Shown here piece by piece: positions 966 to 17,134 of a stretch of 64,000 nt of DNA. The DNA comes from Pirellulaceae bacterium (GTDB lineage: Bacteria > Planctomycetota > Planctomycetia > Pirellulales > Pirellulaceae), in assembly GCA_019636385.1 (NCBI GenBank), contig JAHBXT010000002.1, forward strand, positions 744,001-808,000, given 5' to 3'. Every line of letters begins with the position of its first letter. Within the stretch, counting starts at the first letter, position 1. Both the position numbers and the translations under genes were made by a program. Under the pieces are notes generated by a model. The model was not told the DNA's origin, searched no databases, and saw nothing but the letters and a program-made list of their open reading frames with translations.

Positions 966-2987
966 TTACGGAACATCTGCCGATGTCTCAGAAGCAGATT
1001 CCTCAGTTGAGTCATCTTGAGAAGGTGCTGAGTCATCTTGAGAAGGTGCTGAGTCATCTTGAGAAGGTGTGTCTGGAGAAGCGTCCGAGGGGGCTGCCGC
1101 GACTGATTGGCTTGCAGCTTGCTTGGCATTTTCTTCTGCTTCCATCTGGGCCTTCTTGATGGCCTCAATTGCTTGTTCGTGGGCTACGGCCACACCTTCA
1201 TTGCCTCGCTTACGATAGAGTGCTGCCAACCTCTCGCGACTGTCTGTCCGATTAGGATTGTAGCGTAGCGCTAGTTCAAACAGCGAGATGGCATCGGTAT
1301 CCTTACCTTGGGCCTGGTAAACCATACCCAATGTGTCTAACAATTCATCGATGAACTGCGCGCCTTGCAATCCATTTTGTTGCAGCAATTCCAGCGTTCT
1401 CTTCCCTACTTCCATTGCCTCGTCGATACGCTTCTCTTCCAGGTACAGCCACGCCAAATTGTTGGCGTACTTAACCGCGAGAGGTGCTGCCTTGTGTACT
1501 TTCTCTAGGTGGCGGATTGCATCCGCATACCTTCCCTCGTTGAGAAAGTGCTCTGACAATACGGCATGGGTACCGACCGATGCAGTGTCTGAATCCAACA
1601 TCTCCTTTAATGCGGCAGTCAATTTGGGACTACGATTAATTTTGTCGCGAATCAGGATGGCTGTTTGCTCAGACACTAAGGGATTGGTAGGATCGATTTC
1701 CAATGCTCGCTCAAGCAACGATAGGTCGACAGTCAGTCGATCCATGGCTTTGATTTGCTCAACCGTCTTCCCCATCAACCGCTGCTCCAATAGTGGCCTA
1801 AGAAAGTTTCCAAATCGGACGCGGTACAAATCTGATTTTGCGCGGCGAATTACATTATAGGAGTCATCTTCCGGAGCCTGATTCAGAAGTTCTTCACCTT
1901 CATCCAAAGCTTCTGGACTGGCACCTAACAATTGAACAATCTGAATACGAATGCCGTGATTACTCGGCTCCTTTGCCAATTCGTTCTTGTAATATTCAAT
2001 GGCATGCTTGATCGCATTGTCAGCCAATTCGTCGCGTTTAGCCGCCCTGGCCCGTTGTGCCAGCAAGTGGTAATGTTCCGGAAAGCGCTGAGTGAGAGTC
2101 TCGAAAATCTGCAGAGAGCGGTCAAAATCGCGTTTTTGCCAGTTGATGTCGCTGGCGACAAACAGAACCTCCTTAGGGGTGTACTCCCAAGGCAGTGATT
2201 CTTGGGCGTGGTGCAGTAAGACAGGCACTAAGTCATTGTTGGGATTCTTGGCATATTGCGCCATGTAGCCCATAGCCATGATAGCATGTGCCTTAGGTAG
2301 ACCCGCCTTGTCGTCCGGTGCCAGGCTTCGCAACACTTTCTGACCTTGCACGATGTTACCGCGCTGCATCAGCGTAGTTCCAACCACAAATTGACTCTCT
2401 GGCGTAGGTCGCAATAATTGAGCTCGCTTGTACAACATCTCGCCATATGGCGAGACAACGTACTTCTGCATTTCGGTGGAGTCGGTTTGATCATTACTGC
2501 CTGCTAAGTCGGCTTGGTCATCCTGCTCGATTTGATCCTTGGCAGGCGCAACATTCGTTGTTTTGCCCGCCGAACTTGGTGTCGCATCAATCGAAGCCCT
2601 GGAGGTATCAATTGCGACAGGCGACGAGCCATCGGCCTGTGGTTGATCGGAATTTAGATCAACACTTTCCATGGCCGCTGTCGCTGCATTTGATTTGTCG
2701 CCGGTCGGAGACTTGTCGGCTTGGTCCGCTTCTTGTGGCTTGATGCTAAAGCTGTCGATCAGCCGAGCTTCCCAATCACCGATTTCTGTTCGCCCTAATT
2801 CAAGGTAGCGGTTGACGAGTGTATCCTTGTCTAGTCGACCACCGATCCAAACAGTCAGCGCCAGCAGCACAAGCGCAACGCAGGGTATCCCGCCCAATAG
2901 AACTTTCATCCAGGCTCTGGAGAGCGCCCAATCGTAGCACGCGCCGAGAAATGAAACGGTCCAATTTAGTGGGTCAAAGCCTGCCAT
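966..2987 (-). CDS. T7: membrane-anchored TPR-like protein, last gene of the seven-paralogue array (short form)
   Basis: 673 residues, function unknown. The N-terminus (MAGFDPLNW) carries the family signature: P6, W20, S23-R24, W26. A single membrane segment follows at about 31-48, then RYLELGRTEI, a feature shared by the paralogues. Residues 75-170 are a low-complexity Asp/Ser/Ala/Gln-rich linker absent from most sisters. From about 175 the family blocks resume (GEMLYKRAQLLRP, TTLMQRG, LRSLAP) and lead into TPR-like helical pairs. The most typical are near 480-545 (SVGTHAVLSEHF, AIRHLEKVHKAAP) and 570-625 (DELLDTLGMVYQAQG, ALRYNPNRTDSRERL). The acidic tail has three SQDDSAP-type repeats. By the positive-inside rule the repeat domain should face the periplasm. 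There is a 227-bp gap after T6; the hairpin at 851-879 lies downstream. Confidence 0.9.
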   Translation of the reverse strand: MAGFDPLNWTVSFLGACYDWALSRAWMKVLLGGIPCVALVLLALTVWIGGRLDKDTLVNRYLELGRTEIGDWEARLIDSFSIKPQEADQADKSPTGDKSNAATAAMESVDLNSDQPQADGSSPVAIDTSRASIDATPSSAGKTTNVAPAKDQIEQDDQADLAGSNDQTDSTEMQKYVVSPYGEMLYKRAQLLRPTPESQFVVGTTLMQRGNIVQGQKVLRSLAPDDKAGLPKAHAIMAMGYMAQYAKNPNNDLVPVLLHHAQESLPWEYTPKEVLFVASDINWQKRDFDRSLQIFETLTQRFPEHYHLLAQRARAAKRDELADNAIKHAIEYYKNELAKEPSNHGIRIQIVQLLGASPEALDEGEELLNQAPEDDSYNVIRRAKSDLYRVRFGNFLRPLLEQRLMGKTVEQIKAMDRLTVDLSLLERALEIDPTNPLVSEQTAILIRDKINRSPKLTAALKEMLDSDTASVGTHAVLSEHFLNEGRYADAIRHLEKVHKAAPLAVKYANNLAWLYLEEKRIDEAMEVGKRTLELLQQNGLQGAQFIDELLDTLGMVYQAQGKDTDAISLFELALRYNPNRTDSRERLAALYRKRGNEGVAVAHEQAIEAIKKAQMEAEENAKQAASQSVAAAPSDASPDTPSQDDSAPSQDDSAPSQDDSTEESASETSADVP
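1009..1071 (-). repeat. Three 21-bp in-frame tandem repeats in the tail of T7
   Basis: Three consecutive copies of a 21-bp unit (1009-1029, 1030-1050, 1051-1071), the third differing only at its end. On the minus strand they encode the heptad SQDDSAP three times in the acidic C-terminal tail. The near identity suggests recent slippage expansion. Confidence 0.9.
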
Positions 2988-3214
2988 AACCGAAAAGTCC
3001 TAAGGGAATGAAGCTACGAAAGAACGCAACCTGCCAAGCCGGGGTGAACTCAATCAAAGATGGTGGATCAAAACATCATTATTCTAAGGTGCCGCACAGA
3101 TTTCAGCCGTGAGAATGCAAGAACCTCGCCTTCCGGGCACATTCGTAACAGAGACACTTCATTATATGCGGGCGTTGACGTTTGTAGTAGCTCCGGAGTA
3201 TCCATGGCAACAGC

Positions 3215-5227
3215 TTAGCCCGCTTCCTGGACATCTGCTGGATCTCCCAATTGTTCCTGACCGGCTGCATCGGCATTTTGGGGTGTTGAATCGGTAGCTT
3301 TGGCATCATCACGTTCCATTTCCGCCAATAGCTGGATATGTCGTTCTGAAGCTGCTACATCGCCTTGCTCCTGATATAGTGCGATCAACTTACGGCGAGT
3401 TTCTAGCCGGTTCGGTCTGGACTCCAGACTACGCTCGTAGGATACAACGGCGTCTGCCGGTTCCTTCTTGGCCGCTTGGATGTCCCCTAAGGTGTCCAAC
3501 AGATCATCCGCATATCGTTCTTTGAGCATTGCCGACCGCTCCAAGAGCTTGACCGCTTCAGAAGCAACCAAAAAGGCGTCGTCCAATCTGCCCAAAGCAG
3601 CAAGCGACGAGGCAAACAGGTGAGCATAACGAATCGCTGTTGGTGCAAGTGCATATACCTGTTCAAGATGGATAATGGCTTGCGATAGATTGTCTTGCCG
3701 TAGATTCAATTCTGCCAATATCGCATGAGTTCCAACGGTCGCCGCGCCGGAAATAAGAATTTTGTATAGGTCCCGCGTCAGGTCGGCAATTGGCCTAAGA
3801 TCTGAAGCCGCGAACGCTTGAATTTCTTCTGCCACTTTGGCATTCGTAGGATCGGCCTGCAGCGCAATATCCAGCATGTTCAGGTCGATGTTCGTTTTTT
3901 GCGAGCTAACCAACGTATGTTTGTAGCGCAAACGGTAGACCTCCGAGATAGCTCGGCTGAGTAGGGCGCTCTGTCCATACTCAAAGCCTTCGTTCAATAT
4001 TTGCGCAGCTTCTTCCAATCCATTGGGGTTCCTGGCAAGTAGATCAGCAATCTCAACTCGTGCGACTTCATTCTGTGGGTTTGCAGCCAAGACGGCTCGC
4101 AAATGAATCATCATCGCTTGTAGTGACTTGTTGGCCAAACGCAGATCACCAGCCTGCGCAGCACGGGTCGCCAGCAGTTTATTCAACTCTGGAAACCGCT
4201 TAACCGCCTGCTCCAACGGCCGAAGCGCTGCTTCAAATTCTTGTCTCTGCCATCGCAAGTCGCTCAAGAATTGCAACACGCTGTAGCTAACATCAGGCCA
4301 ATTCATGGCCATCTGGGCGTGATGTTCAAATGCGGGCAAAAGCTCAAGCTCATTGTGCCCTTGAATGCGATAGCGGTAGACTTCCGCCAGAACACCATGA
4401 GCAGCCACATGCCCCTCGGCGTTGTCCGGGGCAATTTGCCTCAAGATATCCTGGCCCTCTCGGAATGCTCCTAGCTGGATCATATACGTGCCAACCAAGT
4501 ACTGACTACGCAAACTAGGATCCAGGACCCGCACGCGATTCAACAGCATTTTTCCGTAATACGGCAATTGCTCGTCTTCCGCAGAAAAGTTTTCAAAGTT
4601 CGCGAGATACTGCGACACAGGCAATTCAGATTTTGTGCCCTCCGATTTGCTAATTGCAGGGGTGATTTTCCTATTCCGTACATTAAGTTCGTCAGTGGCC
4701 CAAGTTAAGTACTTGCGCGACAAAATGCTTCGTTCAATTTGACCACCGCGGGAAACCAAAACCCCCGCCAAAAGCATGATGGCGCCAGGAATCCCAGTCA
4801 ATGCAATGCGCGGCCAATCACGCGACAGCAGCCAAGCGTAGATAGCTCCTGCAAAAGTAGCTGCAACTTTCGCAGGTTCTACAACTAATACGTTGAGCAC
4901 TACAAACAGATAGTCGGCGATGGTGCCCCAGAAGCCGGTTTGATCGTCGGGCCGTACATCGGTCTTCAATATCGACTGAAACGGTCGCCGAATCGTTTCC
5001 AAGACCGTGTCCGTTAACTCAGTTAGTCGGGATGGACCACCGCCAGCTTCGTCCTCTCGTCGTCCACGTAGATTCTGTAGCTTTTCAAGATTTCGATCGA
5101 AAATCGAAAACACAAACGAGGCGATAGTGTGATAGATGAAGACGAACGGGGCGGAAAGCACCCGCGCTAACTTCAACAACAAGTCTAGCAAAGCATACAG
5201 ATTTTCGATCGGATCAAATGGTCTCAT
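3215..5227 (-). CDS. T6: membrane-anchored TPR-like protein (long form), translationally coupled to T5
   Basis: 670 residues, function unknown. It starts MRPFDPIEN with D5-P6, then has about 110 residues with hydrophobic/amphipathic helices (10-42, 103-117) and a basic/acidic stretch. The core signature comes next: E117-P118, W132, S135-R136, W138. The membrane segment is at about 141-158. The family blocks follow (YYGKMLLNRVRVLDP, LRQIAPDNAEG, AAHGVLAEVY), then TPR-like pairs, among them VGTHAILAELNLRQ, HLEQVYALAPTAIRYA and DDLLDTLGDIQ. The charged tail is rich in Asp, Ala and Gln. Its ATG overlaps the T5 stop as ATGA (5224-5227), which implies co-translation of T5 and T6. Confidence 0.9.
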   Translation of the reverse strand: MRPFDPIENLYALLDLLLKLARVLSAPFVFIYHTIASFVFSIFDRNLEKLQNLRGRREDEAGGGPSRLTELTDTVLETIRRPFQSILKTDVRPDDQTGFWGTIADYLFVVLNVLVVEPAKVAATFAGAIYAWLLSRDWPRIALTGIPGAIMLLAGVLVSRGGQIERSILSRKYLTWATDELNVRNRKITPAISKSEGTKSELPVSQYLANFENFSAEDEQLPYYGKMLLNRVRVLDPSLRSQYLVGTYMIQLGAFREGQDILRQIAPDNAEGHVAAHGVLAEVYRYRIQGHNELELLPAFEHHAQMAMNWPDVSYSVLQFLSDLRWQRQEFEAALRPLEQAVKRFPELNKLLATRAAQAGDLRLANKSLQAMMIHLRAVLAANPQNEVARVEIADLLARNPNGLEEAAQILNEGFEYGQSALLSRAISEVYRLRYKHTLVSSQKTNIDLNMLDIALQADPTNAKVAEEIQAFAASDLRPIADLTRDLYKILISGAATVGTHAILAELNLRQDNLSQAIIHLEQVYALAPTAIRYAHLFASSLAALGRLDDAFLVASEAVKLLERSAMLKERYADDLLDTLGDIQAAKKEPADAVVSYERSLESRPNRLETRRKLIALYQEQGDVAASERHIQLLAEMERDDAKATDSTPQNADAAGQEQLGDPADVQEAG

Positions 5228-7110
5228 GGTAACTGTACGGTATCAGAACTAGCTGAGGTCAAACCTGCGGGTGACTGAAGCGGCGCTTCAGATGACGATT
5301 GACTTTCCTCGGACTGCAATGGCTCCGTGTCGACCAGCGACCTCGATAGGCCGCCCGATGTTTGCGATGCATCTGCTGGAAGTGGCGAAGTCTCCTCCGG
5401 AGCTATGTCCGGCTCTGCACGCATCTGGAGGTCAGTTTCTGGGGACGATTCAATCTGACTGGGCGGGGTTAACGTTTGGGCCGCTTCTGCATCCGCTGCC
5501 CGTTGGGACTCTAATTCAGCCAGTTCGATGCGTGCGATGGCGCGCTCCTGGTGCTCAGCTTCGGCAATATCGCCAGTCTGGCGATACAGAAGTGCTAGTT
5601 TGTATCGCGCCGACTTGCGCGATGGATCTAGTTTTACGCACTGCAGCAACACATCTATGGCGTCCGAAAAACGCACAAGCGTGCTGTGGACATCCGCTAG
5701 CGACTCCAGCAACTCGTAGCTGTAACGCTCACCCATTAGGCCTTCACTTTCCAGAGCGGCCACCGACCGCTGGGCAGTTTCTAGGGCTAAGTCGGCCTGA
5801 CTGTTCTGCAGATAATGCTGCACTAACAAGTGCGCGTACTTAATTGCGGTAGGGGCCGTCCGCACAACCTGCTCCAAATGCAATTGTATGCTTTGGTTCT
5901 CACCCACCTTGATCGCATGCTCAGCCAGCACTGCGTGTACGGCAACTGCGGCGGCTCCCTGTGCTAAGATGCGGTCTAACTCCTTTCGTAGCGCTGAGCC
6001 ATCCTGGAAGTCATACTCACGCAAACGTTCGATCTGCCCGGTAACCAGAGGGTTCGAGGGATCAAGCATAAACGCCGTGTCCAGGACACTGAAGTCGGCG
6101 TTCATTCCCCTGGATTCTTCCCAAATCTGGGTGAATCGAATTCGGTATATTTCTGATAGTGCCCGAGAGATCAACTTGCTTGGTCCTAATGCTAGTCCAT
6201 CCAGCAGCAATTGCTCGGCATGTGCCAGACCCTCCACACGATCGGTGTTTATCAGCCGGACAATAGCCACTCGAACCGTATCGCGCGAGGGGTCTCGCGC
6301 CAGCAATTGACTCAAGTAGCGCAGTCCAGCATCTCGCGCCTCTTCGGCGATACGACCATACCCAGCCTCCTGGGCGCGTTCGTACAACAAAGTGTTGAGA
6401 TCTGGGGCGCGTTTGCTTGCCAATTGCAGGACTTCGATCGAGCGCTCATGGTTCTTGCGCTGCCAATGCAAGTTACTTGCGGCTACTAAAACATCTATTG
6501 GTGCTGACGGCCAGGCGGCCGCCATGTCGGCATGGTGCAGCAGTTCGTCGACCATACTAGTATCGTCAGTCTCACGCAACTCCTCCAAGATACTGCTGGC
6601 CAAAACGGAATGAGCGCGCATATCTCCTCGGCGATAATCCGGCGCAATCCCGCGCAACATCCGACGACCGTCAGTGACGGCCCCGCGCTCGATCATGGTT
6701 GCACCAATCATGAGCTTATGCTCATTATTGGGACGCAGCAGTTCCGCTCGTCGATACAACATTTCACCGTAACGCGAAAGGCTGAACTGTCGATGGTCGT
6801 TTGGCCGCTCCTGGTCGCTCAAGACGGTTAAGTCATCCTTGAGTAATCCGCGAGGCTGTACCGTCGTCGACCGCGTCGCCTTGAGCTTACGCTGCCAGCT
6901 GACCGTCTCAGCCTCAGCCATACGCAGGTATTTGTTGGACAGAACGCGATGGTCCAGCTGAGCTCCATACCAGATGAAGCCTAGCGTGGCCATCAACAAA
7001 ATTAAGGGCGCCATCCCTCGCAAAATCCTCAGCCAGGGACGCGACAGCAACCAGTCGACAACTAAACCAGTCACTGACACAAGCCAATTGACAGGATCAA
7101 TAGACGACAT
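5224..7110 (-). CDS. T5: membrane-anchored TPR-like protein (short form)
   Basis: 628 residues, function unknown. The N-terminus MSSIDPVNW matches T7 in spacing: D5-P6, W9, W20, S23-R24, W26. The membrane segment is at about 33-49, followed by NKYLRMAEAETVSWQRKL. Family blocks: YGEMLYRRAELLRP, MIERGAVTDGRRML, RGIAPDYRRG. Later TPR-like pairs include AVAVHAVLAEHAIKVG, HLEQVVRTAPTAIKYAHLL, YELLESLADVHS and CVKLDPSRKSARYKLALLYR. The last ~80 residues are a Ser/Glu/Pro/Gln-rich tail that looks unstructured. It ends in a 4-bp overlap with T6 and follows T4 after a 111-bp gap. Confidence 0.9.
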   Translation of the reverse strand: MSSIDPVNWLVSVTGLVVDWLLSRPWLRILRGMAPLILLMATLGFIWYGAQLDHRVLSNKYLRMAEAETVSWQRKLKATRSTTVQPRGLLKDDLTVLSDQERPNDHRQFSLSRYGEMLYRRAELLRPNNEHKLMIGATMIERGAVTDGRRMLRGIAPDYRRGDMRAHSVLASSILEELRETDDTSMVDELLHHADMAAAWPSAPIDVLVAASNLHWQRKNHERSIEVLQLASKRAPDLNTLLYERAQEAGYGRIAEEARDAGLRYLSQLLARDPSRDTVRVAIVRLINTDRVEGLAHAEQLLLDGLALGPSKLISRALSEIYRIRFTQIWEESRGMNADFSVLDTAFMLDPSNPLVTGQIERLREYDFQDGSALRKELDRILAQGAAAVAVHAVLAEHAIKVGENQSIQLHLEQVVRTAPTAIKYAHLLVQHYLQNSQADLALETAQRSVAALESEGLMGERYSYELLESLADVHSTLVRFSDAIDVLLQCVKLDPSRKSARYKLALLYRQTGDIAEAEHQERAIARIELAELESQRAADAEAAQTLTPPSQIESSPETDLQMRAEPDIAPEETSPLPADASQTSGGLSRSLVDTEPLQSEESQSSSEAPLQSPAGLTSASSDTVQLP

Positions 7111-7221
7111 GCATACTCAGTCCGTAAGAATTTAATTGCGGCAAAATAATTCAATCTCGCGTCAAGGTTGGCGATATTTTAGTGCTAACCACGCCGGTCT
7201 GTATATTCAACTTGATGATGC

Positions 7222-9177
7222 TTAATTGGTCGCTGCGTTACTAACGCGGTTTGTGGCTGCGCCTCCAGTCACCGACACATTGGCCTTGCTGGCCACTTCA
7301 TGTGAACTTTTGTCGTCTGAGCTGTGTTTTTCAAGCAACTCGTGTAGTTTGCGATTTGATTCCGTATGGTTGGGATAAATCTGAATGCAGCGTCGATAGG
7401 CAGCCATTGCCTGGCTGGTCTCGCCGCGCAGTTGATAGATGTCGCCCAAGGTATCCAGCAGTTCGTCACCGTAACGATCGGATAGCGCATCCGCTTGATC
7501 GAGGATGCTCAGGCAGGTCTGAAGCGTCTCCAGCGCAATATCCAAGTTACCCGAATTGGCATGTAGTCGCGCTAACATGCTGGAGTACCTGGGTGAGTGG
7601 GGGATGTTTTGATAGACCTGCTCTAGATGCATTTTCGCTTGAGCCTGGCGATTGCGATACGTGTTGTATTCTGCAAGCACGGCGTGCGCGCCAACATTAG
7701 CCTCGCCACTGGCTAAGATACGATTCATTTCTTCAATCAGTGAGTTGCTCTCGCTATCGTCAATCTGACCTATCTTTGCAATTAAGTCAATCAAGTTGGG
7801 ATTGGAGGGATCCAAACGCAGTCCCGCGTCTATGAGTTTCATGTCTACGGATATACCCTCCGAAGCTGCAAAATGCCTCATGAATTTTACCCACTGAATG
7901 TTGGACAGTTCGCGAGTCAATGCCTTGTCCGGTTTTAGGTGCATTCCTTCAATCAGTATAGCTTCAGCCTGCTGAATACCTTGATCCGTGTTCGTCATGG
8001 ATTGCGCCAGCAGGACTCGAAGCTGAGAATTCGTAGGGCTATAGGAAATCTGTTTTTGCAGGTATTCCATGGCTTTCTGGCCGGCCGAGGCAGCCAATCG
8101 TGAATCGCCGACAATTGTGGCTAGTCGCTGCAATTCCACATTTAGATTGGGAAACCGTTCGGCAGCAATCTGATGAACCTGCAATGCACGGTCATATTCT
8201 TGGCGCTGCCAAAGCAAGGAAGAGAACGTCATCAAGACGTTAGGATGTGTAAACGTCGAAGATAAGGCTCCCTGTGCATGATGTTCAAATAGCGCCTGGA
8301 ACTGAGCATCTTTGGTCTTATTAAACTGATTCCAGTAGATGACCGCTAACACCGAATGTGCATCGGGATCGCCATGTCGGCCATTCGGGGCAATCTTAAG
8401 CAGCAGCTTTCTAGCGCGTTCGGTCAATCCGCGCTCGTACAGCGATATGCCGGCGATAAACTGGCAATGTTTCTGCGGATACAACAACTGGGCGCGATGA
8501 AACAGCATTTCACAGTACCGGGATACTGTTGCCTGGCCGCCCACCAAATCGATCTGGCCGTCGAATTGTGTGAGCTCACCGTCCGCATTTGGTGAAGCCG
8601 TCGATGCCGCCACCTGCTGTGCACTTTTCTCAAGTTTCTTTTGCCAGCTCTCAATTTCAGCACGTCCCATATCTAGATAGTGGTAGGCGAGGCGTGCATT
8701 GTCAAAGGTACTCGCCCACCAGACCAGGCCACCAACCAGCATTAGAGGTACGGATGGAGTAGCGGCAAGAAAGATACGGCCCCAGCGGCGTGATACCACC
8801 CAGCTTAATAACGCACCAGCGATGTTGGCCAACCACCTGGCAGGATGCACAAACGAAAGGTGAAAGATTACTGACAGGTGACGTGCAATGTCGACAGCCA
8901 GCTTGCTGCGGCGAATCTTCTTGAAACTGGGGCGCTCTATCAACTGCTTGGGAAGCGTGGCCAACACTAGGAAGTAGCCGTACAACTTCTTGAAGGCGGT
9001 GGAATTGGTTGTGGGCTTCGTGGAGTTGACCTTATGAAGCACATGATCCGCCGGCTTGAATACCAGCGAGATTAGCCAGTGTTGGAGGCGACTGACGCGA
9101 TTACCCAGCCTTTTGGCCCAATGCTGAATTCGGCCAAAGATCGCAAACAATCCTCCAATCGGATCTAAAGGGCGCAT
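7222..9177 (-). CDS. T4: membrane-anchored TPR-like protein (long form)
   Basis: 651 residues, function unknown. It begins MRPLDPIGG (D5-P6) and has a strongly basic N-terminal region of about 105 residues with many Lys/Arg and amphipathic stretches. The core signature is H111-P112-A-R-W, W126, S129-R130, W132. The membrane segment is at about 135-154. The blocks YCEMLFHRAQLLYP, LYERGLTERARKLLLKIAP and DAHSVLAVIYWNQ follow. C-terminal TPR-like pairs include VGAHAVLAEYNTY, HLEQVYQNIP, DELLDTLGDIYQLRGE and YPNHTESNRKLHELL. The tail is short compared with its sisters. A 309-bp gap separates it from T3, the largest in the array, so a separate promoter is possible. Confidence 0.9.
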   Translation of the reverse strand: MRPLDPIGGLFAIFGRIQHWAKRLGNRVSRLQHWLISLVFKPADHVLHKVNSTKPTTNSTAFKKLYGYFLVLATLPKQLIERPSFKKIRRSKLAVDIARHLSVIFHLSFVHPARWLANIAGALLSWVVSRRWGRIFLAATPSVPLMLVGGLVWWASTFDNARLAYHYLDMGRAEIESWQKKLEKSAQQVAASTASPNADGELTQFDGQIDLVGGQATVSRYCEMLFHRAQLLYPQKHCQFIAGISLYERGLTERARKLLLKIAPNGRHGDPDAHSVLAVIYWNQFNKTKDAQFQALFEHHAQGALSSTFTHPNVLMTFSSLLWQRQEYDRALQVHQIAAERFPNLNVELQRLATIVGDSRLAASAGQKAMEYLQKQISYSPTNSQLRVLLAQSMTNTDQGIQQAEAILIEGMHLKPDKALTRELSNIQWVKFMRHFAASEGISVDMKLIDAGLRLDPSNPNLIDLIAKIGQIDDSESNSLIEEMNRILASGEANVGAHAVLAEYNTYRNRQAQAKMHLEQVYQNIPHSPRYSSMLARLHANSGNLDIALETLQTCLSILDQADALSDRYGDELLDTLGDIYQLRGETSQAMAAYRRCIQIYPNHTESNRKLHELLEKHSSDDKSSHEVASKANVSVTGGAATNRVSNAATN

Positions 9178-9486
9178 ATTGAATGCTGTTCTCGCTAAAA
9201 ACGCCTTGGGGAGCCAGACGGCAACCGTCCACTGCTGAACCCGCGGCAGGTCAAAAAGGATTAGACCATTATCTACCGACCTGGGTTAGACGCCCAGTCT
9301 CTGGATTGACATTGGCAAAATAAGCGCACCCTCCACAACTTGGGGGGGCGGTAACTACAATCGTGCGGATTTTAGCGAGTCTCGTTCGCCAGGCCGGCCA
9401 AGTGAAACTTTATAGCAAAATTGGAGACTATTCATGAGACGGCTGGGGGCGCTCGTCCCGCTGTAGGGGAATCACAATGGAAAATG
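9178..9486. other. 309-bp intergenic gap inside the TPR array
   Basis: No coding frame of note. It holds a weak inverted repeat (CTGGG at 9281-9285, CCCAG at 9293-9297) and, on the minus strand, a CTATAAAG sequence that could be a -10-like element for T4. I see no convincing -35 partner, so no promoter is called. It may be where the array splits into two transcripts. Confidence 0.4.
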
Positions 9487-11556
9487 CTACTGAAACGGCG
9501 GTTGCGGGAAGTGACCCGTGCTGCTTTTCGCCGGTGTCGATGATGCTCCGAAGGGTGCTGCGATACCACGCGTTTGATCGCCTAACACCGACTCCGAATT
9601 CGCCTGCCGGTTCATAGCATCGATCTCCATTTCCAGGGAATTCGCCCGTTCCAGGTTGCCCAGACTGCGGTATAGTTCGGCTAATCGAGTTCGTGTTTCA
9701 ACTCGATTTGGATTCGTGCGGATCGCCAACTCGTAGGCGTTGACGGCCTCGGCTGTATTTCCCAGTTGAGTGTGGGCCATCCCTAACGAATCCATGAGGT
9801 CGTCGACATACCGCTCAGCAAGTGCTTGTTGGTTTTGCAGCTTTATCAGGGCATTGTTGGCGACCCGCCGCGCGCTTTCTGCATCCTGTAATTCCAAATA
9901 CATCCTGGCTAACAGACTGGCGTAACGCGCAGCACCCGCGACACGCTGCACCACCTGTTCCAAATGCATTTGAACCTGTTGCATTTCGTTTTGCAGCAGA
10001 TGGTGCTCGGCCAACAAGGCGTGCGCGCCAAGTACCGAGTAGCCATCCGCCAGGATATCATTCAAGTCGGCGGTTAAGTCATTTGACTCAAGCACATCAC
10101 CAGCAGGCGTTTGAAGGCCGATACGTGCAAGTTCCATAAACTTTTCAGCTACGCGCCAGCTACTGGGGTCAGCAGCTAAGGCGGCATCCAAGTACCTTAA
10201 GGCGGCACGCAACGTTTCACCTTGATTCATCCGCACGGTGAATTTTGCCAGATATACATCCGAAAGTGCGCGAGTCAAAATTGGGCTGGCGGCCACTCGA
10301 ACTCGGTCTGCAAGTAACTTCTGCGCCTCAACAATTTCGCGTTCGTTGTGGCTCAAAAGTTCAGCCAACTGAGCAACTACGAATTCGTTGGCTGGTTGCG
10401 ACTCGAGCAGCTTCTTGAAGGCGGCAACCCCTTTCTTGCGAACTCTCTCGGCCTCTGCATGCTGATGGATCGACTTCGCACGCTGGACAATCATACAATA
10501 CACGCTAGGTTCGCGAAGCGCAGCGTATTCCAATAACTCCAATGCGGCGGTAAAACTCTGGTTTGACCAGTACAACTCAGCCAAAGTCAGCAGCAAAGAT
10601 ATCGGCGCCTCACTCCAGCGAATGCCAATTTCCGCGTGGTGTTGAAACTCGGCAACGCGAAGTGATTCTGGCGTTTGAGTATGACCACTCATTTCAAGCA
10701 TGGCCAGGAGCGCGTGTGCTCTGATGTTGCCTATTCGATCGCGGGGAGCCAGTCGCGATAGAATCCGCTGCGCATCCTCCACCACACCGCTTCGTATTAA
10801 AGCATCACTAACGACGATTTGACCAAAATCTCCCGGGTATATTTGACAGATACGCCGAAACGCCAGCTCACCGTAATTGGTCAAGGACTTGCTGAACTGG
10901 ACCGCCGAAGTTTGCGTATCGGTTGTTGAAGCCACTGCCTCTGCAGTCCCAATATCCAAATAGCGCTTGGCCAGAATGGAACGATCGAGGATACTCCCCC
11001 ACCAAACAAGCATACTAACCGCACTCAAGAGAAATGTCGGCATAGACAGCTTCAGGATCTGGCGCCATTTTCGCGACCTGGCCCAACGGTAACTCAATTC
11101 CGCGATATGGACGGTCCAGCGAGCTGGCTCAACGACCAAGAAGTGAGCAAATAGATTCCAACCGCCTAGCAATAGTTTGAACCAAGTTGACTTATTCAGA
11201 GACCGATAAGCTCGCTGAAAATGTTTCTTGGGGACATCCAGCACATGTTGATACAGGACGTGTATTGCCCCGAGCCACCTACCGCCCGTCTTACCGGCTA
11301 ACTGTAATACTTGGACGATTACATTCCACAAGCCAAAGATGCTTGCGAGCAGCGTCTGCAGAACTAGCGCCTGGCGAATCCGTGCCGCGAAACGAGCAGT
11401 GGAAACGAATGCGGAAGCGAATTTCATGCCGCCTACAAACAGCATTTCGTAGGCCGCCATAAAGGGCCTGGCCAGTAATTCCCCGAGTCGTTGCATGCGA
11501 CTCAGGAACCAATAGAACCAGCCTAGTGGGTCAATGGAACTCACGACGGTTCCCAT
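9487..11556 (-). CDS. T3: membrane-anchored TPR-like protein (long form)
   Basis: 689 residues from the ATG, function unknown. A GTG four codons in would give VSSIDPLGW, aligning residue for residue with MSSIDP of T5, so the true start may be at 11544. The N-terminal extension is the longest of the family, with hydrophobic stretches near 35-52 and 63-88. The core signature is E143-P144-A-R-W, W158, S161-R162, W164. The membrane segment is at about 167-187 and is followed by AKRYLDIGTAEA. The GEMLF block is degenerate (YGELAFRRICQIYP). Late TPR-like pairs include LGAHALLAEHHLLQ, HLEQVVQRVAGAARYASLL, DDLMDSLGMAHTQLGN and NPNRVETRTRLAELYR. It ends in a Ser/Thr/Pro tail. Confidence 0.9.
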   Translation of the reverse strand: MGTVVSSIDPLGWFYWFLSRMQRLGELLARPFMAAYEMLFVGGMKFASAFVSTARFAARIRQALVLQTLLASIFGLWNVIVQVLQLAGKTGGRWLGAIHVLYQHVLDVPKKHFQRAYRSLNKSTWFKLLLGGWNLFAHFLVVEPARWTVHIAELSYRWARSRKWRQILKLSMPTFLLSAVSMLVWWGSILDRSILAKRYLDIGTAEAVASTTDTQTSAVQFSKSLTNYGELAFRRICQIYPGDFGQIVVSDALIRSGVVEDAQRILSRLAPRDRIGNIRAHALLAMLEMSGHTQTPESLRVAEFQHHAEIGIRWSEAPISLLLTLAELYWSNQSFTAALELLEYAALREPSVYCMIVQRAKSIHQHAEAERVRKKGVAAFKKLLESQPANEFVVAQLAELLSHNEREIVEAQKLLADRVRVAASPILTRALSDVYLAKFTVRMNQGETLRAALRYLDAALAADPSSWRVAEKFMELARIGLQTPAGDVLESNDLTADLNDILADGYSVLGAHALLAEHHLLQNEMQQVQMHLEQVVQRVAGAARYASLLARMYLELQDAESARRVANNALIKLQNQQALAERYVDDLMDSLGMAHTQLGNTAEAVNAYELAIRTNPNRVETRTRLAELYRSLGNLERANSLEMEIDAMNRQANSESVLGDQTRGIAAPFGASSTPAKSSTGHFPQPPFQ

Positions 11557-11677
11557 CCGCTAGGGCCGCGTGAGTTTCAACAGCGGAGCGGCAATCCGCC
11601 CAGCGACTGAATTCTTTGCTCGATCGTGGTAGTGCGTTCATCACGGCGATGTCTGTGTCCATCAAGAATTCGAGCAT

Positions 11678-13747
11678 TTATCGGTCAAGTTTAGCGTTAT
11701 CGCTTTCGCGCGCACCGGTTAGCAATTCAGAAGACTCCATAGCCGTCTTCAATTCTTCCGACGACTCCCTGAGAAACTCCACCGCATCCTCCTGGGCGCG
11801 CGCATTCTGTTCATCACCCAGCCTTCTGTAAAGCTTAGCTAGAAGAATTCTAGTTTCCACTCGTGAAGGGTTGGCTTCCAACGCCAATTGGTAGGAACCA
11901 ATGGCATCGGGGTAGCGTTTCAGTCGCTGAAGGACCATTGCCTGAGTCTCCAGGAGTTCATCGACATGTTTTTCATTCATGAGATCACGCTGCCTGATAA
12001 TCTCACGGCAATTCTCAGCCACTTTCAGAGCATCCTCAAAACGCTCTAGTTTGGCGTAGGCGGTCATTAATTGCTGCGCATTCTTAATTGCTGCTGGAGC
12101 CACTTGATAGACCTGCTCTAGGTGCGGAACTGCCTGAGTCACATGATCCTGGTGCATATGAAGCGTGGCTAACATAGCGTGAGTTCCCGTCGTCGCACCG
12201 CCAGTTACCAAAATGCGATTGAGCACACTCACTAAATCGTCCAACCTGCGAGTAGCCTCTTCTGCATCGGCATCAGGTTGAACTTGAATGAGATTGCCGA
12301 TACTCTCGGCTACACTCGGATTCGTCGGGTCCACAACCATTGCCCGATCCAGATAACGAAAACTAGTTAACGGATTCTTGTCACGAGCTGACACCAGGAG
12401 GAAGCGAATGCGATAAACTTCCGAAAGTGCACGCGTGAGTGCTGGGCTAGGTCGAAGCGATTGGCCTTCTTTTAGTATGGCCTCAGCTTGATTAAGTCCG
12501 GCTTCGCTGCTGCTCAAAAGCTGTGCGATTTGAATACGAGCCTTCTCGGCCGACGGCAACTTGATTAAGACTTGTTGAAAGTACTCAATGGCTTGCCTGC
12601 GAACCGAATCGGACAACTCGTCGTACCCGGCCGCAGCCAGTCGCTGAACCAAGACGGGATACACCTCCGGGGAACGCGCGGCGGCTTGTCGGTAAAACAA
12701 AAGCGCGCGGTCAATGTCCTTGCCGCGCCAGCACAGATCGGCAGCCGCCAGCCATACTTCGATGGGAGTACTCTCCCAAGCCATGGCGGCGGTTGCATGA
12801 TGAATAAACACCGGTAGCTGTTCAATGTCGCGCGCGCGCTGAAGCTCGGTCAGCAGACTCATGGCCATCAGGGCGTGGGCCTTAGCATTGCCAACTTGTC
12901 GTGCGGGAGCCATGGACTGCAGCATTCGCTGGCTCTGGCCCACAGCACCGCGCTGCAGCAGCGACGCAGCAATCATAATCCGATTTTCACTGGTTGGCTT
13001 TAGCAACTCGATACGACGAAACAACATTTCGGCATAGCTGGAAAGCGTTGTAGGCAACTTAGGTACCCCGAACACGTCCTGTCCAGTGCCCACATGCGGC
13101 GGCCTCTTGGTCGACACATCGCCACTGGCTAGCAACCCCTGTTCCCACGCCGAGATTTCTTCTTGGCCTAACTTAAAATACATTTCGGCCAGTTGATTGC
13201 GATCGATTTTTCCACTGCCCCAAACGGTGGCAATCATCACGAACAATAAACTGGTTGGAAGTGAAGCGACAAGCAGTCGCTTCCATTTCCTGGTGCGAGC
13301 CCACCCAAACATCACCCCCGCACATTGAATCAGCCATTTTGCCGGTTGCAATAGTGAGATGTGATAGATAGTTCGCAAAAGTCGGCGTCCGAGGCGATTT
13401 TTTCCTGCTTTGCGTAGCGCTGGATTCCTCCGCATGGCTGCGGGTAGCCCAGCTAGCGCCAGCAAATGTTTTTGCGCTATGGGGAAGATACCTGACTTGG
13501 CGACCGGTCGCAGAAATATCAGCTTCCGCTGAATACGCTGGCCCATGGCTACCAACAGATAACTGACAACCAGAAACAGCCAAGCCAACGGATTGGGTAA
13601 CTTACGGCCGAACCGTTGACGCGAAGTTAAAACACCAGCACTTGTCCGTTTGAAAACGCGACGAAAGGGTGCCGCCAGCTTTCGACGCAACGTTTGCAAA
13701 TAGCCGATTGACGCGAATAGCCTACCAAGAAGATCGGACTTGGGCAT
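11678..13747 (-). CDS. T2: membrane-anchored TPR-like protein (long form)
   Basis: 689 residues from the ATG at 13747, function unknown. I prefer this start over an in-frame TTG four codons upstream because it places D5 and G8 (MPKSDLLG) where the sisters have D5-P6-I-G; here the proline is replaced by leucine. A very basic N-terminal region follows, with a hydrophobic stretch at about 56-68. The core signature is Q134-P135-A-K-W, W149, T152-R153, W155, with Ser replaced by Thr. The membrane segment is at about 158-177. Blocks: YAEMLFRRIELLKP, LLQRGAVGQSQRMLQSMAP, AHALMAMSLL. TPR-like pairs include GTHAMLATLHMHQD, HLEQVYQVAPAAIKNA, DELLETQAMVLQRLKR and NPSRVETRILLAKLYRRLGD. Confidence 0.9.
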   Translation of the reverse strand: MPKSDLLGRLFASIGYLQTLRRKLAAPFRRVFKRTSAGVLTSRQRFGRKLPNPLAWLFLVVSYLLVAMGQRIQRKLIFLRPVAKSGIFPIAQKHLLALAGLPAAMRRNPALRKAGKNRLGRRLLRTIYHISLLQPAKWLIQCAGVMFGWARTRKWKRLLVASLPTSLLFVMIATVWGSGKIDRNQLAEMYFKLGQEEISAWEQGLLASGDVSTKRPPHVGTGQDVFGVPKLPTTLSSYAEMLFRRIELLKPTSENRIMIAASLLQRGAVGQSQRMLQSMAPARQVGNAKAHALMAMSLLTELQRARDIEQLPVFIHHATAAMAWESTPIEVWLAAADLCWRGKDIDRALLFYRQAAARSPEVYPVLVQRLAAAGYDELSDSVRRQAIEYFQQVLIKLPSAEKARIQIAQLLSSSEAGLNQAEAILKEGQSLRPSPALTRALSEVYRIRFLLVSARDKNPLTSFRYLDRAMVVDPTNPSVAESIGNLIQVQPDADAEEATRRLDDLVSVLNRILVTGGATTGTHAMLATLHMHQDHVTQAVPHLEQVYQVAPAAIKNAQQLMTAYAKLERFEDALKVAENCREIIRQRDLMNEKHVDELLETQAMVLQRLKRYPDAIGSYQLALEANPSRVETRILLAKLYRRLGDEQNARAQEDAVEFLRESSEELKTAMESSELLTGARESDNAKLDR

Positions 13748-13814
13748 CTTGAATGTCAAACCTTGTAATACTGAATACGAGCCTTCAGCTTAACCTGCAT
13801 TCGACAAACTTCGG

Positions 13815-15902
13815 TCACGACTCGTCCGGCGGAGAACCACTCGATACTGGCTTAGAATAGCCTGAACTTACCGCTGGCGAATGGGGCGTGCGAGACTCTG
13901 CGGAAGTAGCGGGAGTGGATACGCGGGTCAATTCAGACAACCACGTATTGAACCGCTGATTTTGCTGCGTTTCTTGTTCCAACAATTTCCCGGCATCCTC
14001 TTCGGCAGTCGCCCTCTGCTGATCACCAGTCTCGCGCAACAGTTTTACAAGTCGCTGGCGAGTCTGGCCACGAAATGGATTGAGTTGTAAAGTCACGCTG
14101 TACAAGCGAATTGCATCAGGAAGGTTTTCCTGCTTTTGATAGACTTTGCCCAGCGAATCTGCTAAATCGTCTACAAAGGACTCGTGCAGCGATTTTCGCT
14201 GCTCAAGCAGAGATAACGAATGGTTGGCAACCTCTCGTGCGTTATCCAAACGCCCCATGCTTCCATATGCAAGAGTTAACATATTGGCATACTTGACAGC
14301 GGTCGGCGCAATTCTAAAGACCTGCTCCAGGTGCATCAGCGCCTTATCTCGCTGGTCATTACTCCAGTAGTACTCTGCCAGAATTGCATGTGTTCCGGTA
14401 GTAGCTTTACCCGATGCCAAGACCCTATTCATGATTGCCCCAAGGCTTTGCTCCTCCGATGCCGCTGGATTGTTGGCATCATCTTGAACTACCTGAGCGA
14501 TCTCTTGAGCCACATGAGGATTGGTGGGATCTAATCCCATTGCACGGTCCAAAATAGCCAGACCCGCTTTGCGGTCCGGGTTATGCCTACCAAAATAGTT
14601 ATATCGCATCCGACAAACTTCTGACGCTGCGCGCGCGTAGACAGTGCCTGGTTTGGCAAGTGGAGCAAAGTCCTTTAACAATTCCTCAGCCTGCTCTATT
14701 CCTTCCTGGTCCATGCTCAAGAGTTCGATCAATAGAATTTTCGCCTGATGATCGGTGGGTTGATTCGCTAGATGCTTTCTGAAATGATCAATACCCATAG
14801 TTCGAACAAAACTGGCCAAGGCAAGTTGATCGGCTTCCTGCGCCCGGCTAGCAAATAGCCGGTACAGACTAGGTTCACGCAGAGCGGCTATCTGAAAAAT
14901 GTTAAGCGCCCGCTCGACTTGGCCAGCCTTCATCAACAACTCACCTGAAGCCTCAAGGATAGCTATCGGCGCTGATTCCCAAAGTGCACCTGCTTGAGCA
15001 TGATGCTGAAACAGCGGGATCAGTTGGGAATCTGGATTGGTCCGCAATTGCTCCATGTAGATACCAGCTATCATCGAATGGGCTCGCACATCACCAATGC
15101 GATCGTCTGGCGCAATTTTTCCCAGCATACTACGCGCTTCAGATATTGCACCTCGACGCAGCAATGTATGTCCAATTATCAAGCGAACGCGCTCACTGGG
15201 TTCTAGCAAGTAGATGCGCCGGAATAGCATCTCATGAAAGCGAGCTTCGGTCTCTTTTTGCTCGCTAACCGCACTCGCCACCGGTGACTTTTTCTCCAGC
15301 ACAGCTGCGGGCGTGCGAGAGTCTTGATCCCCATTGCTGATTCTGGTCAGCGCGGCATCGAAATTGTCGAAGCTTTCTTCACTAACTGCAAAATAGCGTT
15401 GAATCAACAGCACTCGATCAATTCTGTCGCCAGACCAAACAGCCACAGTGAACGCCAGCAGACCCATCGTTGGAAGTAACCAAGCCATGGCCGGCAGCCA
15501 CGCCCGCGACTTCGCCCAGCTGTGGACGGCTCCCGCGATTTGAATAAACCATCGGATCGGCTCCACCATCGTGCTGCGATAGGCATAACCCATTGCCTTA
15601 GTGAAGGCTTGAGCGGCTCGCGTCTTACTTAAACGCGCATATGTAGACGAGCGAAACGTGCGCCGAGGAATCGAAATTATCCAGAAATTTATGGATCGCA
15701 ACGTTCCCATCACGAACTGATCCCACAGCGCCCCCACAAACGCCATCTTTAGCGAAAGTCGCCGACCAATTCTCGACAGGCCGAACATGAGCTTCAGTGG
15801 ACCAGTAACTAGGCGGTTGCTCCACTTACGACAAAATCCGTTGACTCTGTAGAACCACCCGATGGGGTCGAGAGTCGGCAGACGCGTCCTACGATTCGAC
15901 AT
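13815..15902 (-). CDS. T1: membrane-anchored TPR-like protein, first gene of the array (long form)
   Basis: 695 residues from the ATG at 15902, function unknown. The frame stays open upstream to 15983, but only this start puts the D-P motif (TLDPIGW, D12-P13) near the N-terminus as in the sisters. A basic extension with aromatic stretches follows, then the core signature: E114-P115, W129, S132-R133, W135. The membrane segment is at about 136-156. Blocks: FHEMLFRRIYLLEP, TLLRRGAISEARSMLGKIAP, RAHSMIAGIY. Late TPR-like pairs include TGTHAILAEYYWSNDQ, HLEQVFRIAPTAVKYANML, DDLADSLGKVYQKQ and NPFRGQTRQRLVKLLR. It ends in a Ser/Pro tail. The gap to T2 is 67 bp. Confidence 0.9.
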   Translation of the reverse strand: MSNRRTRLPTLDPIGWFYRVNGFCRKWSNRLVTGPLKLMFGLSRIGRRLSLKMAFVGALWDQFVMGTLRSINFWIISIPRRTFRSSTYARLSKTRAAQAFTKAMGYAYRSTMVEPIRWFIQIAGAVHSWAKSRAWLPAMAWLLPTMGLLAFTVAVWSGDRIDRVLLIQRYFAVSEESFDNFDAALTRISNGDQDSRTPAAVLEKKSPVASAVSEQKETEARFHEMLFRRIYLLEPSERVRLIIGHTLLRRGAISEARSMLGKIAPDDRIGDVRAHSMIAGIYMEQLRTNPDSQLIPLFQHHAQAGALWESAPIAILEASGELLMKAGQVERALNIFQIAALREPSLYRLFASRAQEADQLALASFVRTMGIDHFRKHLANQPTDHQAKILLIELLSMDQEGIEQAEELLKDFAPLAKPGTVYARAASEVCRMRYNYFGRHNPDRKAGLAILDRAMGLDPTNPHVAQEIAQVVQDDANNPAASEEQSLGAIMNRVLASGKATTGTHAILAEYYWSNDQRDKALMHLEQVFRIAPTAVKYANMLTLAYGSMGRLDNAREVANHSLSLLEQRKSLHESFVDDLADSLGKVYQKQENLPDAIRLYSVTLQLNPFRGQTRQRLVKLLRETGDQQRATAEEDAGKLLEQETQQNQRFNTWLSELTRVSTPATSAESRTPHSPAVSSGYSKPVSSGSPPDES

Positions 15903-16138: not shown

Positions 16139-17134
16139 CTACGCGTCTAACGGATTTAACGGCAGCTCGAAGACCATGCCTTCTTCAATCGCTTTAAATC
16201 CCAGTCTCCGTAAAATAGCGTGCTGCTGATTGTCTAAGGCAGATGTAACAACCCGCACACGATCGTACTTCTCGTTGTTCAGCTCACGGAAAGTCTCGCC
16301 CAATAAGAAAAGATGCTGGTCTGCAGCCGCAAACCCACCACCAGCCGTCTGAGCTAACCAAGATTCAGGGGGAGGAGGCCACAGCCAGGCAACTTTCGGG
16401 CGATTCCCGCTGATAGTTGAAGCTAGACTCCAAATGAACAGCTCCTGTACCGTCCGACCAGTAGCACGATCGGCCAGTTGAAACGAAGACACTTCGGCAT
16501 GGCCCAAAACGCAAGATAGCCACCACGGCAACCTGGGTTCATCTAACTGCCGCTGGACACAGGTGCCTCGTCTAACCTGCATCTGCAACCGGTCGGATGG
16601 CGCTCGAAATTCATCCAACGTCAATTCCCAAACTGAGGTAGGTTGCATTGGCTGGTATCCGGCATCGGCCAACCAGCCATTGAGCCGCGTCTCATACGAA
16701 AGCGTACCTGCCAATCCATCGCCTGGTCCCAGCCCCAGATAAAAGGCGCTTTCCGGTACGGCGGGACGAAATATGCTGCGCTCAATTCGCTGCTCCACAC
16801 AGCGACTCTTTGCAGCATCCAGTAGAAGTTGAGCCACTTCGTCTGCCGCAGCATGATCTTGAACACACATTGCAGCAACATCCAGTCGCTTACGAACTTC
16901 GCCGGACTGCCAAATCCAGGCAGGACAGGTCAAGTGAATGAACCCAAGCGGCCGGTCGTGCAGGCAAGCAAGCAGCAATTGACCAGCTTCAAAGTAAGGC
17001 TTGGCGGTGACGAACAGCTCAAACTGTTCGGCCGAAACAAACAAATGCTGCGAATACTGACCATAGTGGGCGTTCCATATCTCACTGAGGCCGCGTAAAT
17101 CGGTATTGCGGAAGCTACGAATCGACAAAGCCAC
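16139..17134 (-). CDS. GNAT-family N-acetyltransferase, probably two GNAT-like halves
   Basis: 331 residues. The first ~150 residues look like a GNAT fold (opening LSIRSFRNTDLRGLSEIWN, then RPLGFIHLT and the acetyl-CoA loop region). The second half ends with ALDNQQHAILRRLGFKAIEEGMVFEL, the typical last strands of a GNAT domain. The V/I-x-x-Q/R-G-x-G/A pyrophosphate loop is not clear, so the N-terminal half may be degenerate. The substrate is unknown. It sits 28 bp downstream of proC on the same strand and 236 bp upstream of T1, so proC and this gene are probably one transcript. Confidence 0.7.
   Translation of the reverse strand: MALSIRSFRNTDLRGLSEIWNAHYGQYSQHLFVSAEQFELFVTAKPYFEAGQLLLACLHDRPLGFIHLTCPAWIWQSGEVRKRLDVAAMCVQDHAAADEVAQLLLDAAKSRCVEQRIERSIFRPAVPESAFYLGLGPGDGLAGTLSYETRLNGWLADAGYQPMQPTSVWELTLDEFRAPSDRLQMQVRRGTCVQRQLDEPRLPWWLSCVLGHAEVSSFQLADRATGRTVQELFIWSLASTISGNRPKVAWLWPPPPESWLAQTAGGGFAAADQHLFLLGETFRELNNEKYDRVRVVTSALDNQQHAILRRLGFKAIEEGMVFELPLNPLDA

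Follow-up and report, generated by a model that had tools for sequence, protein, structure and literature searches.

The locus considered here raises the question of whether seven neighbouring and strongly divergent genes of one family make up a conserved machine of seven parts or a local expansion of something more widespread. In the window, by which we mean the whole stretch of 64,000 nucleotides analysed (contig C2 of the Pirellulaceae assembly GCA_019636385.1), positions 966-15902 hold seven consecutive minus-strand open reading frames, all of them intact and 628-695 residues long when the seventh is counted from 15902. Genes 2 to 7 align end to end with gene 1 at 30-34% identity, with 43 invariant columns among which the sequence blocks named in the first-pass annotation are included, so that its description of seven same-strand paralogues is borne out. 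Pairwise identity among the seven is about 28-37%, by which recent duplicates are ruled out; in a whole-genome search the array copies nevertheless find one another with full-length matches at E = 2e-55 or better, and chance resemblance is thereby excluded. The genes at 3215 and 5224 share 4 bp at their junction, the remaining gaps are 55-309 bp, and GC3 of the seven (0.52-0.59) is equal to or slightly lower than that of neighbouring genes (0.54-0.66). On one side the array is flanked by a dnaK gene, ending at 740, and on the other by a gene without assigned family and then proC. Upstream of the array, the protein encoded at 16139-17134 reads by eye like a GNAT acetyltransferase, and Pfam gave no match for it at E<=1e-5. 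A promoter and terminator scan of the array yielded numbers near the shuffled expectation, and therefore no operon boundary is drawn.

All seven proteins share one plan, found by motif and by model, namely an N-terminal membrane hairpin with W..[ST]RxW and a transmembrane helix, followed by a TPR superhelix. Their common N-terminus is a DPxxWxxxxxGxxxxWxxSRxW arm and then a single transmembrane helix. The hairpin motif is the best conserved part of the family proteins; across 38 members of the two classes described below, its R and W are invariant and its first W nearly so. In gene 1 (966..2987, minus strand like the other six; 673 aa), which has a short N-terminus, the motif DPLNWTVSFLGACYDWALSRAW occupies residues 5-26 (codons 2910..2975, minus strand) and scores 66.5 against the congener motif, a value reached by 0 of 1000 shuffles. 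Gene 3 (5224..7110; 628 aa) has a short N-terminus as well, and the AlphaFold2 model of its protein (mean pLDDT 84.7) consists of a helix at 6-23, a transmembrane helix at 26-51, a helix at 54-80, a disordered linker and a TPR superhelix at 113-547 which is mostly above pLDDT 90. The TPR-like part recognised earlier is thus present, though it is not limited to the C-terminal half, as the superhelix covers everything after about residue 113 in the model.

The other five genes carry a long N-terminal extension: gene 2 (3215..5227; 670 aa), gene 4 (7222..9177; 651 aa), gene 5 (9487..11556; 689 aa), gene 6 (11678..13759; 693 aa from TTG, or 689 aa from the ATG at 13747) and gene 7 (13815..15902; 695 aa, with its frame open to 15983), the last of which provided a second structure model. 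In the whole genome such an added segment occurs in seven of nine array-type copies, these five included. It is clearly basic in 7222, 13815 and 11678, most strongly in the last with 28 K+R vs 1 D+E, not basic in 3215, and acidic in two dispersed copies. Accordingly, of the basic N-terminus and single membrane helix ascribed to all seven at first, the helix holds throughout and the basic character in part. A second hairpin motif inside the long N-termini finds shuffle support only in 13815 (2/1000) and 7222 (10/1000). From charge and architecture the N-terminus is predicted to be cytoplasmic and the TPR part periplasmic, the charge bias being weak in some members. No lipobox at a cleaved signal was seen by eye in the array proteins, for which a transmembrane anchor is predicted instead. 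A fold search of the PDB returned generic TPR superhelices only (OGT, APC/C subunits) at TM-scores of 0.2-0.4, without a functional hint.

As to known families, Pfam gave generic TPR models only for the array proteins, the family is without a model in NCBIfam, and no specific model of either collection was above cut-off; a known named family is therefore ruled out, in agreement with the earlier statement that no named system has this layout. The NCBIfam model TIGR02917 (PrsT) is matched by all 38 members scanned, at best with E = 6e-26 and to the TPR repeats, but the scores (33.9 bits for 5224, 42.3 for 7222 and 76.7 for 966) all miss its cut-off of 312.2 bits, and for this reason the array proteins are not filed as PrsT. 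In fact PrsT is the nearest by concept, as a TPR protein tied to an exosortase/PEP-CTERM system, and array-family proteins may work like it; however, it is a lipoprotein with a model of about 900 aa, whereas the array family is predicted to have an uncleaved hairpin and transmembrane anchor, and the gene neighbours also differ. LapB, HemY, MamA and other bacterial TPR proteins share the TPR superhelix, some with a single membrane anchor, but are weak matches below cut-off and to the repeats alone, and we know of no W..SRxW hairpin or exosortase neighbour among them. PrsT itself has been described as belonging to the proteobacterial XrtA/PEP-CTERM system (PMC1569441), and the TPR gene prsT is required for floc formation in Aquincola (PMC9850573).

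The origin of the array can be read from the distribution of the family. The 5.69 Mb assembly holds ten copies, the seven on C2 and three further full-length ones at C1:280713, C1:27491 and C5:122514, so that the number seven, correct for the array, does not cover the genome. A tree built from 34 family members of the genus unites the array genes, all seven, with the two C1 copies in a single clade (100/100) inside a class usually represented by one copy per congener, and puts the C5 copy in a second class; a 66-row tree repeats this result, and in both trees the nine-copy clade is confined to this genome. Within this clade gene 1 branches first, 3215, 5224 and 7222 group with the C1 copies, and 9487, 11678 and 13815 form another group; the order in the tree matches the order of the genes along the array, and such grouping of contiguous genes is as expected of stepwise tandem duplication. 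Though all 14 congeners carry family members, none of the 14 has an array, and in 241 genomes of the taxonomic family, with the best five candidates per genome scored, no other array was found at E<=1e-45; tandem pairs of family genes occur in other genera. A conserved seven-gene set is ruled out by these relatives, as far as five candidates per genome show it in the wider search, and the co-conservation presumed in the first-pass annotation is contradicted; a lack of arrays in relatives was an outcome which that annotation had itself named as speaking against it. Its reading of the divergence, as that of an old set kept together, fails likewise, since the clade exists in this genome only and low identity here points to fast evolution: in the TPR region the single copies of congeners are themselves no more than about 35-44% identical, vs 30-37% among array-type copies. 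Hence it is probable that an unnamed exosortase-linked family has undergone a lineage-specific tandem expansion here, and that the array is not a conserved seven-part machine.

What such a family does is suggested by its neighbours, which the earlier reading overlooked: the frequent neighbourhood of exosortase U ties it to PEP-CTERM protein sorting. Exosortase U (XrtU; NF033780, TIGR02602) is thought to sort surface proteins in planctomycetes, and is an enzyme adjoining the TPR proteins rather than a relative of them. In this genome the C5 copy begins 30 bp behind an exosortase-like gene, with a PEP-CTERM gene nearby. Of 102 strong family matches outside the genus, at least 39, spread over 28 genomes, have a long exosortase no more than 1.6 kb away, always on their own strand and in 37 cases upstream; and when named genomes were scanned with the XrtU profile, taken because a search with profile A1 or gene 1 gave no usable result, 80 loci were kept and 76 examined; immediately downstream, 35 of these carry a family member and 38 carry none, and three end too soon, both counts (39/102 and 35/76) treating related genomes as independent. 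The junction measures -3 to +4 bp in 23 of the 35 pairs, which are found in Rhodopirellula, Stieleria, Roseiconus and Neorhodopirellula among other named genera; the XrtU loci closest to the enzyme on contig C7 of this genome, Pirellula-like ones, have no family member downstream. Across 149 genomes, both genes occur in 60, the TPR gene only in one, the exosortase only in 52 and neither in 36 (Fisher p = 4e-9, kinship ignored), and in the sole TPR-only genome, G163, an exosortase-like gene overlooked by the Pfam search adjoins the TPR gene. In other genera, two exosortase U-TPR pairs stand in tandem at L151, L154 and G096:C1:4146173-4153301, which means that the pair itself duplicates. We found no description of the XrtU-TPR pair in the literature searched, mostly outside subscription papers, so an earlier description is possible.

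The array class joins the exosortase-adjacent class in a quick tree (SH-aLRT 100), and its basal members L057 and L058 adjoin exosortases. Neither the array nor the two C1 copies lie directly downstream of one as the C5 copy does; no exosortase is adjacent to the array, and most single copies of congeners have none next door. The family is thus tied to XrtU by position, its expansion is monophyletic, and the array's subgroup has lost the link. Of the assignment of the array to this XrtU-linked TPR family we are rather confident.

The partner enzymes themselves vary. Forty exosortases were aligned in two ways, by MAFFT and with an HMM of nine mostly intact ones, and the two alignments agree on the triad almost everywhere. 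Where the TPR partner falls outside the array's lineage, 14 of 15 exosortases have an intact C-R-H triad; where it belongs to one of the two classes or to their nearest relatives, 0 of 12 do. The twelve were chosen by the position of the TPR partner and exclude a pair from G005, the TPR protein of which belongs elsewhere, and one from G013, which another gene splits. The C5 partner (L022:11073-12911) reads L-A-H in both alignments, Cys and Arg being missing, and scores below the XrtU cut-off. Exosortase homologues short of at least one triad residue are L022:11073-12911 (G000:C5), L072, L074, L076, L160-L165, L168 and L173. Some genomes bearing triad-less partners have intact exosortases elsewhere; here it is the XrtU on C7 (L143:8014-9858), which exceeds the XrtU_C cut-off as do partners in other genera. 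The tree of the exosortases has broadly the same shape as that of the TPR proteins, with most second-class partners in one clade (99/97) and with L072:7210, the partner of a second-class protein, as an exception; the intact C7 XrtU falls in one group with the exosortases beside L057 and L058 (96/93).

Of PEP-CTERM proteins this genome has 35 candidates at E<=1, and none of the listed matches falls in the window. Behind the dispersed array-type copy L020, on the same strand, come genes for a LamG protein and for a sulfatase, both with C-terminal PEP-CTERM signals; the sulfatase (L020:12689-15055), itself with a LamG domain, is a predicted exosortase-sorted enzyme. In G007 a first-class pair has a PEP-CTERM gene immediately upstream, encoded on the opposite strand. 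Copy number and PEP-CTERM candidates are uncoupled, with 10 vs 35 here and 2 vs 33 in G008. In three congeners (L077, L079 and L082, in G005, G006 and G011) an ABC-type ATPase gene lies 3' of the single array-class gene on the same strand, with no obvious permease neighbour.

Taking these lines together, we somewhat favour the view in which the array proteins serve exosortase sorting as periplasmic adaptors acting in trans, having arisen by expansion of an XrtU-partner family; the adaptor function taken by itself, judged from sequence and model, appears evenly balanced. Ancestrally, the family would be a partner of XrtU in sorting the PEP-CTERM surface proteins of planctomycetes. Through the W..SRxW hairpin and transmembrane helix the protein would be held in the cytoplasmic membrane, docked to XrtU or to an inactive XrtU paralogue, and the periplasmic TPR superhelix would bind secreted PEP-CTERM proteins or envelope polysaccharide machinery, which it would present to be cleaved and transferred. 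No longer coupled to an exosortase in cis, array members would work in trans with the intact XrtU on C7 and may have drifted toward different partners. The adaptor view is supported by the position of the C5 copy, by the linkage and co-occurrence counts, by the exosortases beside L057 and L058 with their affinity to the C7 enzyme, by the two PEP-CTERM proteins behind L020, by the clade of the expansion and the modelled hairpin and superhelix, and, by analogy, by the floc formation that depends on prsT. It is weakened by the array standing without an adjoining exosortase or a listed PEP-CTERM gene, by the copy number not following the PEP-CTERM number, by the 52 exosortase-bearing genomes without a strong family match, and by the half of scanned XrtU loci with no family member downstream.

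The same missing exosortase beside the array and most single copies would suit a co-option, in which the array-type copies quit sorting on losing the adjacent exosortase and became general periplasmic TPR scaffolds, for example in polysaccharide export or wall assembly; the lineage's triad-less partners, the independence from PEP-CTERM number and the ABC-type ATPase genes point the same way. Yet the hairpin motif, the presumed docking element, has stayed the best conserved part, L020 still precedes two PEP-CTERM proteins, and the genome retains an intact XrtU of the matching clade, so that co-option seems rather unlikely to us. The hetero-oligomeric scaffold of seven specialised subunits proposed at first would accord with intact co-directional genes, a 4-bp overlap and strong divergence with a common fold; it is improbable given that arrays are absent from the 14 congeners and from the 241 genomes (five best candidates each), that one or two copies suffice in relatives, that two array-type copies are located elsewhere in the genome, and that the order of branching agrees with that of the genes, the pattern which stepwise duplication leaves. 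Of that proposal, the envelope adaptor or scaffold remains plausible, and the seven-part set does not. Neutral or dosage-driven duplication without division of labour would also give tree order along the array, and tandem pairs do occur in other genera; but all nine array-type copies are intact and keep the invariant residues despite deep divergence, which points to selection on each copy and makes this explanation very improbable. The array is therefore real and a variant within a known type of sorting system, and a conserved seven-part machine is not supported.

Substrate recognition and hand-over by exosortases are still little understood, and the number of known accessory proteins is small. 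The XrtU-linked TPR gene across Pirellulaceae, the triad-less partners in one lineage and the nine-copy expansion offer concrete candidates for this step, as well as natural cases where enzyme and partner have separated. As a tentative extension, which we consider doubtful, inactive exosortase paralogues with their TPR partners and free-standing TPR adaptors, nine of the latter here, might all be substrate receptors feeding one active exosortase U; if true, exosortase substrates would be received through a step based on pseudoenzymes. Among the neighbourhoods of the exosortases in this genome, the genes around the intact exosortase U (L143:825-11560, G000:C7) look by eye like polysaccharide or nucleotide-sugar genes, and on C5 one 5331-aa ORF containing cadherin/Ig-like repeats (L144:1803-17798), the C-terminus of which appears dockerin-like by eye, lies beside a PEP-CTERM gene and the inactive exosortase.
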